Part shown: positions 15,937-21,871 of the stretch, one piece after another
How positions within the stretch are numbered: the first letter of the stretch is position 1
How the letters are laid out: every line of letters starts with the position of its first letter
Source: Peptococcaceae bacterium
GTDB taxonomy: Bacteria; Bacillota; Desulfotomaculia; Desulfotomaculales; Pelotomaculaceae
DNA: 64,000 nucleotides
Direction: 5' to 3'
NCBI GenBank assembly: GCA_012518875.1
Contig: JAAYRI010000087.1
Span: 1 to 64,000, forward strand
Made by a program: the position numbers and the translations under genes
Notes under the pieces: generated by a model
Database searches by the model: none
Told to the model about the DNA's origin: nothing
Seen by the model: the letters and a program-made list of their open reading frames with translations, nothing else

Positions 15937-17238
15937 TTATTTACTAGCAAGGCTTCGCAGCAATCCACCAAACCCTGGAAAGGAAATATCTATGCATTCC
16001 GCACCGTGCACCATGGTTTTGCCTCTAGCTACCAATCCGGCCACCGCCCCAGCCATGGCTATGCGATGATCACCCTGGCTGTCACAAAAACATCCCTTCA
16101 GCACCGGGCGTCCTTTAATCATTAGTCCATCTCCCAATTCAGTAACATCAGCTCCTAATGCTGTAAGCAACCTGGCCACTGCGGTAATGCGGTTGCTCTC
16201 CTTAACCTTTAATTCGGCCGCATCATGGATCACTGTCTTCCCTTCTGCCGTTGCGGCGGCAACTGCCAGCACCGGTATTTCATCTATTAGGCGGGGGATT
16301 ATTTCCCCTCCTACATCTATTCCTCGTAGTCTTCCCGCATAACGCACCCTGATATCCGCAACTGGTTCCCCACCATTTTGCCTTAGGTTAAATCTCCTAA
16401 TATCAGCACCCATCATTTCCAGTGCATCAATAATGCCGCTCCTGGTCGGATTAACCCCCAGGCCCCTGATAGTCAGATCGGAGCCGGGCACCAGGGCAGC
16501 AGCTGCAAGCAAAAATGCTGCCGAAGATATATCCCCGGCAACACTAATTTTTTTTCCTTTTAGCACCGGGTGCCCGGTAATGCAAACAGTATTTCCTTCA
16601 ACATTTAGGAAAGCTCCAAAAGAGTCCAACATCAACTCCGTATGATCTCTAGAACGATATGGTTCCGTAATAGAAGTTTGACCATCGGCAAAAAGGCCGG
16701 CCAGTAGTATAGCAGATTTCACCTGGGCGCTTGCTACTGGTGAAATATTGGCAGTCGCTTTCAGGGAACCTCCGTGTATCGCCAGGGGTGCACAACCACC
16801 GCCTTTTTTCCCTAAAATAACAGCCCCCATTTTTTTTAATGGTTCCGTCACCCTTTTCATAGGGCGGCTTCGTAGAGATTGATCACCTGTGATCACACTA
16901 AAAAATGGTTGTCCGGCCAGAACACCCAGAGAAAGCCTCATTGTGGTACCGGAATTGCCCACATCTAATATATCCTCCGGCTCCCTGAGACCCTCTAAGC
17001 CCCGTCCGCTAATTCTTACCACACCCTCATGGGGACCGCTAATTTCAATTCCCAACCTTTTATAACAATTAATCGTGGAAAGGCAATCTCGGCCTGTAGA
17101 AAAATTTTCAATTACTGTTTCACCAGTGGCTAGAGCACCGATTATCACCGCCCGGTGGGAGATAGATTTATCACCAGGGACATTAATATCGCCCTGTAGG
17201 CTGCTCCCCTGTTCAATATACAACTGCATACAAATCAT
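15937..17238 (-). CDS. aroA: 3-phosphoshikimate 1-carboxyvinyltransferase (EPSP synthase)
   Basis: 433 aa; 'GDKSISHRAVIIGALA', 'GNSGTTMRLSLGVLAGQ', 'DGLMIKG'. Confidence 0.97.
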   Translation of the reverse strand: MICMQLYIEQGSSLQGDINVPGDKSISHRAVIIGALATGETVIENFSTGRDCLSTINCYKRLGIEISGPHEGVVRISGRGLEGLREPEDILDVGNSGTTMRLSLGVLAGQPFFSVITGDQSLRSRPMKRVTEPLKKMGAVILGKKGGGCAPLAIHGGSLKATANISPVASAQVKSAILLAGLFADGQTSITEPYRSRDHTELMLDSFGAFLNVEGNTVCITGHPVLKGKKISVAGDISSAAFLLAAAALVPGSDLTIRGLGVNPTRSGIIDALEMMGADIRRFNLRQNGGEPVADIRVRYAGRLRGIDVGGEIIPRLIDEIPVLAVAAATAEGKTVIHDAAELKVKESNRITAVARLLTALGADVTELGDGLMIKGRPVLKGCFCDSQGDHRIAMAGAVAGLVARGKTMVHGAECIDISFPGFGGLLRSLASK

Positions 17239-17279: not shown

Positions 17280-18398
17280 TCATACCCTGCATGAGAATGC
17301 TTTTCTCACAGTATAGCCTTTTTTTCCAAGAACCTGGATCGCATTTTTTTGATCCTCCTCTGTGGCAAACCCGACCCGGATTGTGCCACCTTCTCCCTCA
17401 CGCACCCTGAGGATTTCGATGTCAGTGATGTTAATTCCACCTCCGGCCAAACAGCTTGTAAAACCAGCAATAATGCCTGGTTGATCCGGGACAGTTAGTA
17501 TGATCTCAAAAATCGCCGGCAGATAGCCTTTAACATTTCCCTGTAAGTTAACGCGGACGGCCCTGGCATCCGCCAACCTGGAGAAAATTGCCTCCATATT
17601 TCCCTCCTGCAGCAACTCTGTGAAAAGGGTAAGTTCATCCCTAAAGTCACTAATCATTTTGAGGATTTGCCGGCAATTTGTATAAAAAATATCCCGCCAC
17701 ATGGCAGGGCAACCGGCGGCTATCCGGGTGGTATCCCGGAAACCACCGGCAGCAAGGGGCAAAATAGATTCGTTTTCCGGTAGACTCACCACAGTATTAA
17801 CCAGGGAGGCCGCCAAAAGATGAGGCAGGTGACTGACGGCAGCCACGGCCAGGTCATGCTTTTCCGGTTTAATCTCAACCACCTTTGCACCAATATCCTT
17901 AACCAGTTTTTTTACCTTTTTTAGCGCTGCCGGTTTACTATTGGTTGTTGGTGTAATTAGATAAAAAGCATTTTCAAATAAATAGGGATCGGCTCCCTTA
18001 ATCCCATTATGTTCAGAACCAGCCATGGGGTGGCCGCCTACAAAACTAATCCCGGGAGGCAGCAGATTTTCCGCCTCCTGCACCACCCTGGTCTTGGTAC
18101 TCCCAACATCGGTAACTACCGCCCCCGAGGCTAGATGGGGCCATATTTCATGCAGTATCGGAATTGTGGCCCCCACCGGTGTAGCGATAATAACCAGATC
18201 TGCCCCGGCTACCCCTGCGGCAGGAGAAGCTGTATATCGATCTACTGCACCCAATTCTACTGCCAGATGCAAATCATCCACACAGGAATCCACCCCAACC
18301 ACCTCTTCCACCAGTTTGTTCCTGCGCAGGGACATGCCGAGGGAACCACCGATGAGACCAACACCTATTATGGTCACCCGGTTAAAATCAGGTCTCAA
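17280..18398 (-). CDS. tyrA: prephenate dehydrogenase with C-terminal ACT domain
   Basis: 372 aa; 'GVGLIGGSLGMSLRR', 'GGHPMAGSEHNGIKGADPYLFENAFYLITPT', ACT-like C-terminus. Confidence 0.94.
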   Translation of the reverse strand: MRPDFNRVTIIGVGLIGGSLGMSLRRNKLVEEVVGVDSCVDDLHLAVELGAVDRYTASPAAGVAGADLVIIATPVGATIPILHEIWPHLASGAVVTDVGSTKTRVVQEAENLLPPGISFVGGHPMAGSEHNGIKGADPYLFENAFYLITPTTNSKPAALKKVKKLVKDIGAKVVEIKPEKHDLAVAAVSHLPHLLAASLVNTVVSLPENESILPLAAGGFRDTTRIAAGCPAMWRDIFYTNCRQILKMISDFRDELTLFTELLQEGNMEAIFSRLADARAVRVNLQGNVKGYLPAIFEIILTVPDQPGIIAGFTSCLAGGGINITDIEILRVREGEGGTIRVGFATEEDQKNAIQVLGKKGYTVRKAFSCRV

Positions 18399-19429
18399 GG
18401 CATTTTCCTCCCCATAAAATCAGCAATTTTTTTCAGATCATCCATCATCAATTTAAAACCCCTTGGGGTCAGGGATTGCTGTCCATCACAAAGAGCCTCC
18501 TCCGGATGAGGATGCATTTCCACAATCAGCCCGTCAGCGCCGGCAGCAATGGCAGCCCTGGCCATGGGTGGCACAAAACGCCATTTACCGATAGCGTGGC
18601 TGGGATCAACGATTACCGGCAGGTGCGACAGATGCTTGACCACCGGCACCGCAGTTAGATCAAGAGTATTCCTGGTATAGTTTTCAAAACTGCGGATACC
18701 CCGCTCACATAGGATCACATTGTAGTTACCACCGGACATGATATATTCAGCTGCCATTAACCACTCTTCTATTGTGCAGGAAGGCCCCCTTTTTAAGACA
18801 ACTGGTTTATCAATCCCCGCTACCTCACGTAAGAGATAATAATTTTGCATATTGCGGGCGCCAATCTGTAAGATGTCAGCGTAATGGGCCACCATGGATA
18901 CATCACGCACATCCATTACCTCGGTGACAATTAAAAGACCCGTTTCCTCACGTGCCTCTGCTAGAAACTTCAATCCCTCCTCTGCCAAACCCTGAAAGGA
19001 ATAGGGAGAGGTTCTTGGTTTAAAAGCCCCACCCCGTAAAATTGCCCCACCGGCATCGCGGACGGACCGGGCAGCCTGTATTAGTTGTTCTCTACTTTCA
19101 ACGGCACAGGGGCCGGCCATAACATGGAGGGTGTCACCACCTATTTCTAGATCACCAACCTTGATTATGGTATTCTCCTCCTGGAAGGTTCTGCTGGCCA
19201 GCTTATAGGGCTGCAGGATAGGTACCACCTTTTCCACGCCGGGCATAGACTCCAAATTTACGTCGCACAAAATATTTCTGTCCCCAACAGCCCCAATTAT
19301 GGTACGTTCTATCCCCTGTGAAAGGTGGGTTTTAAATCCTATTTTCTTAAGACGTTCCAAAACATGTTCTATTTCACCATCACCGGCGTGATGATCCATA
19401 ACCACTATCAACTTCATTTCACTCCTCAT
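18395..19429 (-). CDS. aroF: 3-deoxy-7-phosphoheptulonate synthase (AroF/AroG-like type I beta)
   Basis: 344 aa; 'MAGPCAVESREQL', 'LRGGAFKPRTSPYSFQG', 'VIVDPSHAIGKW'; ferredoxin-like N-terminal regulatory domain. Confidence 0.95.
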   Translation of the reverse strand: MRSEMKLIVVMDHHAGDGEIEHVLERLKKIGFKTHLSQGIERTIIGAVGDRNILCDVNLESMPGVEKVVPILQPYKLASRTFQEENTIIKVGDLEIGGDTLHVMAGPCAVESREQLIQAARSVRDAGGAILRGGAFKPRTSPYSFQGLAEEGLKFLAEAREETGLLIVTEVMDVRDVSMVAHYADILQIGARNMQNYYLLREVAGIDKPVVLKRGPSCTIEEWLMAAEYIMSGGNYNVILCERGIRSFENYTRNTLDLTAVPVVKHLSHLPVIVDPSHAIGKWRFVPPMARAAIAAGADGLIVEMHPHPEEALCDGQQSLTPRGFKLMMDDLKKIADFMGRKMP

Positions 19430-19460
19430 CTAGAAAATTACATCGGTATTAATTTTACCA

Positions 19461-19490
19461 TTAAAAACAAAAAAACACCCTCGGAGGTGT
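19461..19490 (-). terminator. intrinsic terminator in the aroF leader (candidate attenuator)
   Basis: minus strand ACACCT-CCGA-GGGTGT followed by TTTTTTTGTTTTT, about 30 nt before the aroF ATG. Confidence 0.7.
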
Positions 19491-19526
19491 GTTAAATAAA
19501 ATCACAAAGACATAATTTATCGCCCC

Positions 19527-19611
19527 CCTACCATACTACAGTACCTATCCTTTTTAGCGAAAGGAATAAATCCTTTATTCCTTTCCTGATCCCAACTATC
19601 CTACCATACTA
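19527..19611 (-). promoter_or_regulatory. aroF leader: duplicated 12-mer TAGTATGGTAGG flanking a perfect 12-bp hairpin
   Basis: CCTACCATACTA (plus sense) at 19527-19538 and 19600-19611; GAAAGGAATAAA-TCC-TTTATTCCTTTC at 19559-19585. Confidence 0.6.
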
Positions 19612-19725
19612 GTCTTATCTTGTTTTGTACTGTCCCTCGGGCCACAAAATGTGCTACATCTACCCTAGCCCAGGTCAATTTTAACATACATATCACCCGC
19701 AGGGCAATGAACAATGATTGGGTGA

Positions 19726-20100
19726 CTAGCTCTGTTTGATGTCCGGACGCAAACAGGCGGCCTCTCCCAGGTAAACATGTTTTATCTCTTTCTGAGACTT
19801 ATTGGTGTTAACATGGATAAGTATCCTGATGCATCTGGGAAGACTACCGGGAACATTTAATTCCAAAGCATCGAGTAGGGGCACATATTTTAAACCTCTA
19901 TCCCGGGCGGCCCGGGCCGGAAAACAGGCATCCAGATCCTCCGTCATGGTAAAAATAATGCTGGCCATGTCACCAGCTTCAATATCGTTTTCTTTAATTA
20001 TAGTATCCAATAGTTCCCCAGTGGCGGCTAGGATTTCTTCCGCTGAATTCCTTTCCACCGTAATGGCACCGCGGATCCCCCTAAGAACTGTTCCAGCCAA
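19726..20100 (-). CDS. aroH: chorismate mutase AroH
   Basis: ORF to 20133; likely TTG start at 20100 after GGGGGG; 'LRGIRGAITVERNSAEEILAATGELLDTIIKEN', 'FTMTEDLDACFPARAAR'. Confidence 0.93.
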   Translation of the reverse strand: MAGTVLRGIRGAITVERNSAEEILAATGELLDTIIKENDIEAGDMASIIFTMTEDLDACFPARAARDRGLKYVPLLDALELNVPGSLPRCIRILIHVNTNKSQKEIKHVYLGEAACLRPDIKQS

Positions 20101-20180
20101 ACTGCTTCCCCCCAAATGCATAGTTGAAACCAAGTCCAGAAGGCAAAGCCGCAGCCCATGAAGCGGTTCCCATCATGCCA

Positions 20181-20603
20181 TCAACCAGACTGAACAGCCC
20201 TATGGCCCAACCCAATCGCTACCTCATCCAAATGTAACAATCCTACACCAAAAAAAATTGCTACACTGATATGATCCTGTTTCCTGGCGATACCTATTTT
20301 ACCGCCAACATTAAAACCCAGAGCCTTGGCCATTATCTGTGACAGGGCTTCTCTTGTGGCCCCGGCCACAGCCCCCTCATCTGCATGCTGCTCTTTGATG
20401 ACACCTTCCCTCTTTGAGGCCACCACAGCACGCTCAATGATTCTGTTAACAGACGAAATGAAGTCACCGCCGTAATCTACCGCCGCTGTCCTAAAACCTT
20501 CTCTAGCAAAACGTTGTTTATACTCCCTCTCTTGTTCCCTACTGCTGGTCAGGGCCATCTCTATCGCTACACTTGCCGTTCTGCGGCTGCCATATAGTGT
20601 CAT
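20181..20603 (-). CDS. HutP-family protein
   Basis: 140 aa; 'VAIEMALTSSREQEREYKQRF', 'KIGIARKQDHISVAIFFGVGLLHLDEVAIGLGHRAV' resembles the HutP fold family. Confidence 0.8.
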   Translation of the reverse strand: MTLYGSRRTASVAIEMALTSSREQEREYKQRFAREGFRTAAVDYGGDFISSVNRIIERAVVASKREGVIKEQHADEGAVAGATREALSQIMAKALGFNVGGKIGIARKQDHISVAIFFGVGLLHLDEVAIGLGHRAVQSG

Positions 20604-20767
20604 TATATACCACCTTGCTTCTAACAGGAGTGCAGGCGTTGTCCCGGCGCCTACTAAAAATATTATACTTTACAGATGTTTGAAAAGCAAACCAACCCTA
20701 ATCTGGGACAACCTGGGGCATGCCAACATTCAGCACCCTCACCATCAATCTAAATTCCAGGGATGCC

Positions 20768-21238
20768 TTATCTTGATAAACGTACCAAAGCGATATTTCT
20801 CAGGCCCTCATTCACTGTAATAGTAAGCCCCTGTTGTGGTTCAGCTACCTCGCGGCTTACATCCATTACCTCAATTTCAAAGGGTCTTTCATACTCCGTC
20901 CCATCAACCTGTAAAACATCTCCTTCTGCAACGGAAACCGTCACATAGCGGCCGTTAAAAACCCCGACCACCTCGCCGTTTACCAACAGCCGTGCCTGTG
21001 GGAGTGAGACAAACTCCTTTAGTCTAAAGGTAACAACAGGTTTGTTCAGGTCCCTGCTGGCGGTTGCCTGTTGAGGTCCCATATAGCTGTCGCCCATCAC
21101 AGGTTCCACATTTTGGCCGTGCTGATCACCGCCCAAAAACACCTGTGTCCCCAGCACCAGCAAAGCTATAATAATTACTGCCCTGATTAGGATGGTCTCT
21201 AGTATTTTATCCCAAGATCTACCCGGTGGCATTATCAT
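20768..21238 (-). CDS. membrane-anchored hypothetical protein
   Basis: 156 aa with N-terminal TM segment 'IRAVIIIALLVLGTQVFLGG' and extracytoplasmic beta-rich domain. Confidence 0.65.
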   Translation of the reverse strand: MIMPPGRSWDKILETILIRAVIIIALLVLGTQVFLGGDQHGQNVEPVMGDSYMGPQQATASRDLNKPVVTFRLKEFVSLPQARLLVNGEVVGVFNGRYVTVSVAEGDVLQVDGTEYERPFEIEVMDVSREVAEPQQGLTITVNEGLRNIALVRLSR

Positions 21239-21322
21239 TCCTTGTCCCCCATAAAAAAATTTACCAGTAAAATTGTATGAATAATACTGGCAGGATATTC
21301 CTATAGGGAAATGGTCTTTGGT

Positions 21323-21871
21323 TTACCCCAGGTTGTACTTCCTTTCCAACCGAGACCTTGATTCTTTCATCTCCTCGTGAATTTTAAAAAGCAGTCTCTC
21401 TATTTCCGCATGATTCAATGAAATATAGGCCGGATCAAGTATTTCTATTTTCCTAAAGTCATCCCGGGCCAGAAAACGGATTATGTTTTCTAGGGCGTCC
21501 GCCTTAACTGTAAGTATTAATGGGGCATAGGCAATATCACTATTATTTATATCGTCATATACAGTATATACATCTCCGGAAACGTCGATATCAATAATCT
21601 GCATGCCCTGCAGGGGCACGTTACGAAATATGGTGATCTGCTGTTCCCGCGCCTCCTCAGCAGCTTTGTCAGTGGGTTTGCCGCCAAACAAAAAGCGCCC
21701 CGGCTTACCGGTGCCGCTAAAGTCAAGGCGTATTTTAAATAAAATGCCATCTCTATCAGTTATGCTGTCTGTGGCCTGGCTATTTGACAACAGAATCCCT
21801 CCCACATCTTTGGGTGCTATTTTATCGTATAATTCTCTTCTGCTTAAGGAATTCCTTCTTGACTTGGCCAA
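21323..21871 (-). CDS. hypothetical protein
   Basis: 182-aa ORF in the operon orientation between rluB and the 156-aa ORF; no family recognised. Confidence 0.6.
   Translation of the reverse strand: MAKSRRNSLSRRELYDKIAPKDVGGILLSNSQATDSITDRDGILFKIRLDFSGTGKPGRFLFGGKPTDKAAEEAREQQITIFRNVPLQGMQIIDIDVSGDVYTVYDDINNSDIAYAPLILTVKADALENIIRFLARDDFRKIEILDPAYISLNHAEIERLLFKIHEEMKESRSRLERKYNLG

Follow-up and report, generated by a model that had tools for sequence, protein, structure and literature searches.

HutP is a textbook example of a histidine-dependent antiterminator, its RNA binding requiring L-histidine and Mg2+, while the sites of TRAP (MtrB, PF02081) consist of many G/U-AG triplets with spacers of 2–3 nt. 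In Bacillus, HutP acts as the antiterminator of the hut operon, and its target leader carries two clusters of three NAG triplets (PMC7430163). Other leaders are known for genes of the kind described below: in Streptococcus suis trpX, which encodes part of a tryptophan uptake system, is under T-box control (PMC9382623), and the uORFC-13-1 motif lies directly 5' of aroF, just before a terminator, but resembles a small upstream ORF and is restricted to Acholeplasma and environmental sequences (PMC8632094). In this work we describe a HutP relative encoded within an aromatic amino acid operon, for which we consider it probable, in the absence of binding or expression data, that it is a HutP paralogue binding leaders with NAG octamers and attenuating an aromatic amino acid regulon in a TRAP-like manner.

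The window, i.e., the whole stretch of 64,000 nucleotides that we analysed, carries on its minus strand, in this order, the hutP-like gene (20181..20603, 140 residues); aroH, encoding a type I chorismate mutase (CM_1; 19726..20133; PF07736, TIGR01796); aroF, encoding a DAHP synthase with a ferredoxin-like domain (18395..19429; PF00793, PF18152, TIGR01361); tyrA, encoding a prephenate dehydrogenase (17280..18398; PF02153, PF20463); and aroA, an EPSP synthase gene (15937..17238) recognized by the PGDKSISHR motif in its ORF, the family libraries not having been applied to it. The product of the first gene matched PF09021 (HutP) with 170.4 bits (E-value 2.7e-50), well above the gathering cut-off of 25. 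Its AlphaFold model (pLDDT 89.9) had 11 matches in the PDB at E≤0.001, all of them to HutP (1vea, 1wpv, 1wmq and 4ok9 among them), with TM-scores against the HutP crystal structures of up to 0.77 at ~21% identity. Because a phmmer search of the PDB with the sequence found no HutP, the link to the family requires a profile or the fold; with these, 20181..20603 encodes a true PF09021 protein with the HutP fold. The family match, the fold and the gene order confirm what a preliminary description of this DNA had stated, namely that a HutP-family gene precedes aroH-aroF-tyrA-aroA.

The same description had singled out the histidine and metal ligands of HutP as the residues whose conservation should be checked. 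In Bacillus HutP the metal/L-His ligands are H73, H77 and H138; in all 26 aligned sequences of the type encoded here, hereafter AroH-type, the first two positions are glycines and H138 falls in a deletion, whereas all three histidines are kept in the 7 hut-type HutPs of the same alignment. The RNA-contact residues of Bacillus HutP (E55, T56, R98, T99 and E137) are not conserved in the AroH-type proteins, K59 being the one exception, which is a point against the RNA-binding role proposed below. Conservation of the protein is very high, with a mean column identity of 81% over 47 sequences. A maximum-likelihood tree (unrooted) placed the AroH-type, the hut-type, a CBS-fused type and two further types apart with good support, the AroH-type and hut-type proteins forming separate groups with 100/99 and 100/98 support. 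Alignment and tree together thus show, at the level of sequence, that AroH-type HutPs are a separate and widespread PF09021 clade without the histidine/metal ligands. The Pfam name and the common fold could still suggest an ordinary histidine-responsive HutP that serves a hut operon elsewhere and lies beside aro genes by chance, but this reading has to contend with the missing ligands, the separate clade, the presence of hutH next to five of the seven HutPs that retain all ligand histidines, and a linkage to aro genes that extends throughout the phylum. Moreover, neither a histidase/HAL gene (PF00221) nor the hut operon that would have refuted the preliminary description was found in our search of the source genome (its assembly is ~80% complete), where the search recovered a single HutP. 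We therefore rejected the histidine-type explanation, which seems to us very improbable indeed.

Within the same GTDB family, 23 of 25 genomes had a HutP-family gene, and so did 257 of the 399 genomes sampled from the phylum; by our own count 224 of the 399 (~56%) carry an AroH-type HutP, the Pfam E-value being the main criterion for this type. Among 80 named hutP loci taken for comparison, the closest was that of Candidatus Syntrophopropionicum ammoniitolerans (99% identity), and others included loci from Pelotomaculum, Desulforamulus, Desulfofundulus, Thermincola and Moorella. Of 40 diverse loci of the phylum, 31 had an aroH-like gene directly 3' of hutP and without exception on its strand; aroF, tyrA, aroA, trpE/G/D/C and hisC were often present further 3', and rluB, spmA/B and two conserved genes of unknown function often 5' of hutP. 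The placement of hutP in an aro operon, on which the preliminary description had remarked, is therefore real, yet it is not peculiar to this operon, since it is the usual arrangement in a subfamily that occurs throughout the phylum. As a separate observation, two minus-strand ORFs between rluB and hutP in the window (20768–21238 and 21323–21871) had no Pfam or NCBIfam match, yet 15 and 14 of the 40 loci, respectively, have relatives of them 5' of hutP.

Such tight adjacency of hutP and aroH, together with the 81% conservation given above, could mean that the protein serves AroH as a partner or allosteric subunit instead of acting as an RNA regulator, with the leader described below being unrelated to it. 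In an 80-genome subset, however, AroH was absent from 8 of 40 HutP carriers and present in 25 of 40 non-carriers, and because the two proteins also occur apart an obligate subunit is harder to uphold; the association between HutP and the RNA element would, in addition, be left unexplained. We regard an AroH subunit as improbable. Among the papers accessible to our search, none linked HutP with chorismate mutase.

The second part of the proposed system lies between aroH and aroF, where the preliminary description was right to place a leader with a terminator two genes downstream of hutP (a hairpin at 19475–19490 followed by a T run). Reading along the minus strand, a candidate promoter (TTGCCC, 18 nt, TG-TTAAAAT; 19678..19707) came from a consensus scan whose number of matches was within chance expectation; a TTGCC...TATGCTAAAAT-like stretch is visible 5' of the leaders in genomes of the same genus. 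It is followed by a first NAG cluster (CUAGUAUGGUAGGAUAG; 19594..19613), which has a matching upstream cluster in the genus and family, and by a hairpin read from the sequence (AAAGGAAUAAA-GGA-UUUAUUCCUUU; 19560..19584) whose sequence is not conserved between genomes. The core of the element (19464..19549), comprising the second NAG cluster, a G-run and the terminator, was matched by our covariance model R1 with 66 bits (E-value 3.4e-16), a score that is partly by construction since the 35 leaders from which R1 was built include this copy. Within the core, the second cluster (UAG-N6-UAG-N5-UAG) runs into the G-run that we propose as an antiterminator arm (19523..19547), and the intrinsic terminator ACACCUCCGAGGGUGU, followed by a U run (19465..19490), is conserved in relatives. 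At the 5' end of the leader there are also three UAG triplets with spacers of 2 and 3 nt (19651–19670, minus strand); their spacing resembles that of TRAP sites, and the source genome has TRAP, but they may be there by chance.

At the gathering threshold, Rfam searches returned no match in the window and none (to T-boxes, riboswitches or leaders) in 20 element loci, and at E≤5 the region 19300–21350 gave only one unrelated match of 16 bits. A T-box or known riboswitch was rejected on these grounds, even though T-box leaders serve the same kinds of target genes, and the element is a previously uncatalogued RNA.

In the genus and family the aroF leader consists of tandem NAG-NNYGG repeats, then a G-run and a terminator; in other families the element lies 5' of hutP, aroF or later genes of the operon, and in some relatives at the ribosome-binding site in front of aroH or aroF. 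Our first strict pattern, GGYAGYAYGGYAGGGGRGGCGATAA, had no match in the window because several bases differ in the copy of the source genome. When the pattern was shortened a little and up to 3 mismatches were allowed, it matched 9 of the 25 family genomes and no control, and a three-triplet pattern matched the 80 hutP loci 39 times on the hutP strand, with 0 matches on the other strand and 0 in shuffled sequence. In the phylum sample, all 21 pattern matches within 20 kb of hutP were on the hutP strand. Over 42 leaders, a distance of 8 nt between the starts of NAG triplets was observed 100 times against 21 expected, whereas 7 nt, the period for Bacillus HutP, was depleted; this difference in period is a point against HutP as the binder. 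The first base of the triplet was U in 52%, C in 35% and A in 13% of cases, G being excluded by the search pattern. One or two clusters of 2–3 triplets were detected per leader, most often a single one with three triplets or a pair with two and three.

The element shares with the hut leader of Bacillus subtilis clusters of about three NAGs in a leader with a terminator, as its proposed binder shares family and fold with the HutP of that species (PDB 1vea, 1wmq); it differs in its octamer period, in having aro rather than hut genes as neighbours and in its aromatic regulon. TRAP targets are similar in outline, with AG triplets repeated in a terminator-bearing leader of aromatic amino acid genes, whereas the proteins are unrelated, the source genome has a separate TRAP gene, and the element has an 8-nt period with 2–3 triplets per cluster and also admits C or A in first position.

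To compare the distributions, we searched the 399 genomes with R1 at a threshold of E≤1e-6, HutP and TRAP having been scored in this same set before. The element was found in 119 of the 224 genomes with an AroH-type HutP versus 5 of the 175 without, and of these five assemblies four were ≤91% complete and the fifth (G163) 94%. By HutP and TRAP status the counts were 97/149 (both present), 22/75 (HutP only), 3/51 (TRAP only) and 2/124 (neither), so that HutP is predictive of the element with or without TRAP, and TRAP alone is not. At the level of GTDB families, both HutP and the element occurred in 47 and the element without HutP in 2; in families where only some of the genomes have HutP, the element occurred in 23 of 47 HutP carriers compared to 3 of 32 non-carriers. 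AroH-type HutP therefore co-occurs with a conserved leader RNA of NAG triplets with an 8-nt period beside a terminator. HutP and TRAP status were transcribed by hand from the search tables, the R1 E-values are rough, and the odds ratios for HutP and the element should be taken as upper estimates, as the association tests were not corrected for phylogeny and R1 was trained on HutP-linked loci.

These counts also bear on whether the leader is bound by another factor, be it TRAP, an unknown protein or a riboswitch-like small ligand, with HutP merely sharing its lineages and operons. TRAP, also a binder of AG triplets, is encoded in the source genome and in half of the sampled genomes, the element is commoner in TRAP carriers among the HutP-positive genomes, and about half of the HutP carriers had no element at E≤1e-6, for which the limited sensitivity of the model is perhaps the reason. 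Set against this are the 22 genomes with HutP and the element in which TRAP is lacking, the failure of TRAP to predict the element without HutP, an association that persists at the family level, and the absence of an Rfam match in the loci searched; furthermore, the 8-nt period and a C in over a third of first positions differ from the closely spaced G/U-AG triplets of TRAP sites. The cross-table and the triplet spacing disfavour a plain TRAP site, and a different binder altogether strikes us as rather unlikely. That the RNA regulon itself is real we consider very likely, and that HutP is the binder of its leader element likely but unproven. The preliminary description had inferred a changed ligand or target for this HutP from its position, and this is supported as far as computation can reach, with the ligand histidines gone from every aligned member and a NAG element that tracks the subfamily, though without binding data.

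Further putative targets, mostly genes of aromatic metabolism, came from 40 strong element sites away from hutP, at which we read the next gene; several gene classes were checked through representatives against NCBIfam and Pfam, and the other assignments rest on sequence resemblance. The next gene encoded a TrpX-type tryptophan ABC transporter binding protein at 18 sites, AroF at 8, a branched-chain-type binding protein at 5 and a sodium:solute symporter at 2. Single cases were pheA, shikimate kinase (aroK), a relative of tryptophanase/tyrosine phenol-lyase, a beta-RFAP-synthase-like gene, a LarA-like gene, a sigma54-type regulator beside an amino acid dehydrogenase and, in the source genome, a DctP transporter. 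Thus, the preliminary description's focus on the aroF leader as the target holds insofar as that leader does contain the element, but falls short in that the regulon inferred here extends far beyond aroF.

Based on these observations, we consider it likely that this HutP-fold protein, probably a hexamer, regulates aromatic amino acid genes by binding RNA; it would bind the NAG clusters with about three NAGs, i.e., one cluster, per face of the hexamer, as inferred from HutP. Its charging ligand would be an aromatic amino acid or a product of the pathway rather than histidine. The bound form may cover the G-rich arm that otherwise pairs with the rising strand of the terminator; the terminator would then form and transcription of aroF-tyrA-aroA would stop, a repression similar to that by TRAP, while relatives whose repeats overlap a ribosome-binding site would be controlled at translation instead. 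Pairing between the G-rich arm and the terminator is visible in some folds; RNAalifold, however, supported the terminator only, and cognate antiterminator pairs had only a modest advantage over permuted ones (122 of 5000 permutations were as good), due to which we do not claim antiterminator covariation as shown, and the direction of control and the ligand remain inferences in which we place about even confidence. The same HutP–RNA system could work in reverse, binding preventing termination, for example in response to aromatic shortage or a catabolic substrate. Bacillus HutP acts in this way (PMC7430163), and some of the targets are transporters or a tryptophanase-like lyase; on the other side there is the weak evidence that the second NAG cluster abuts a G-run able to pair with the rising arm of the terminator, so that a protein bound at this place would more readily promote the terminator. 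We think antitermination the less likely direction, perhaps unlikely, but it is not excluded.

The HutP-linked repeat RNA and the aromatic genes that accompany it across many anaerobic Gram-positives point to an unrecognised control system. If this is true, most PF09021 members in these anaerobes are misleadingly named, and they would supply many acetogens, syntrophs and sulfate reducers, such as Moorella, Pelotomaculum and relatives of Desulfotomaculum, with the regulator that has been lacking for the synthesis and uptake of aromatic amino acids. HutP would be a second protein to solve the problem that TRAP solves, though its fold is unrelated and the geometry of its repeats differs, and its leader would add a new family of cis-regulatory RNAs, with hints at what orphan transporters carry. 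With one protein of 140 residues and a leader of ~200 nt, the system is small and directly testable. We lean, with some reserve, towards the broader view that what the HutP fold commonly does in this phylum is to attenuate an aromatic amino acid regulon in the manner of TRAP, through undescribed NAG-octamer leaders, the histidine-responsive HutP being a smaller and differently equipped branch; as the tree is unrooted, it does not decide which role is ancestral.

Several observations stand beside this. The second copy of the element in the source genome (G000:C222:1773-1879, minus strand) lies 5' of the gene for the DctP-type TRAP transporter, and the site is kept in the genus, a hint at an aromatic compound as the substrate of this transporter. 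One hut-type HutP with all three histidines (L070) adjoins a tryptophanase/tyrosine phenol-lyase-like gene, and hutH was not seen within its 1.5 kb flanks. Of the further PF09021 types represented by L056 and L065 and by L058 and L060, one keeps the HxxxH and H138 positions and lies beside other genes, and a second has arginine at both H73 and H77. Finally, at seven loci (L069, L071, L072, L073, L075, L077 and L079) the HutP domain follows two CBS-like domains (262–284 residues); these proteins form the CBS-fused clade of the tree, have no histidine ligands, are encoded near ispD-, murA- or gltX-like genes and are possibly nucleotide-responsive.
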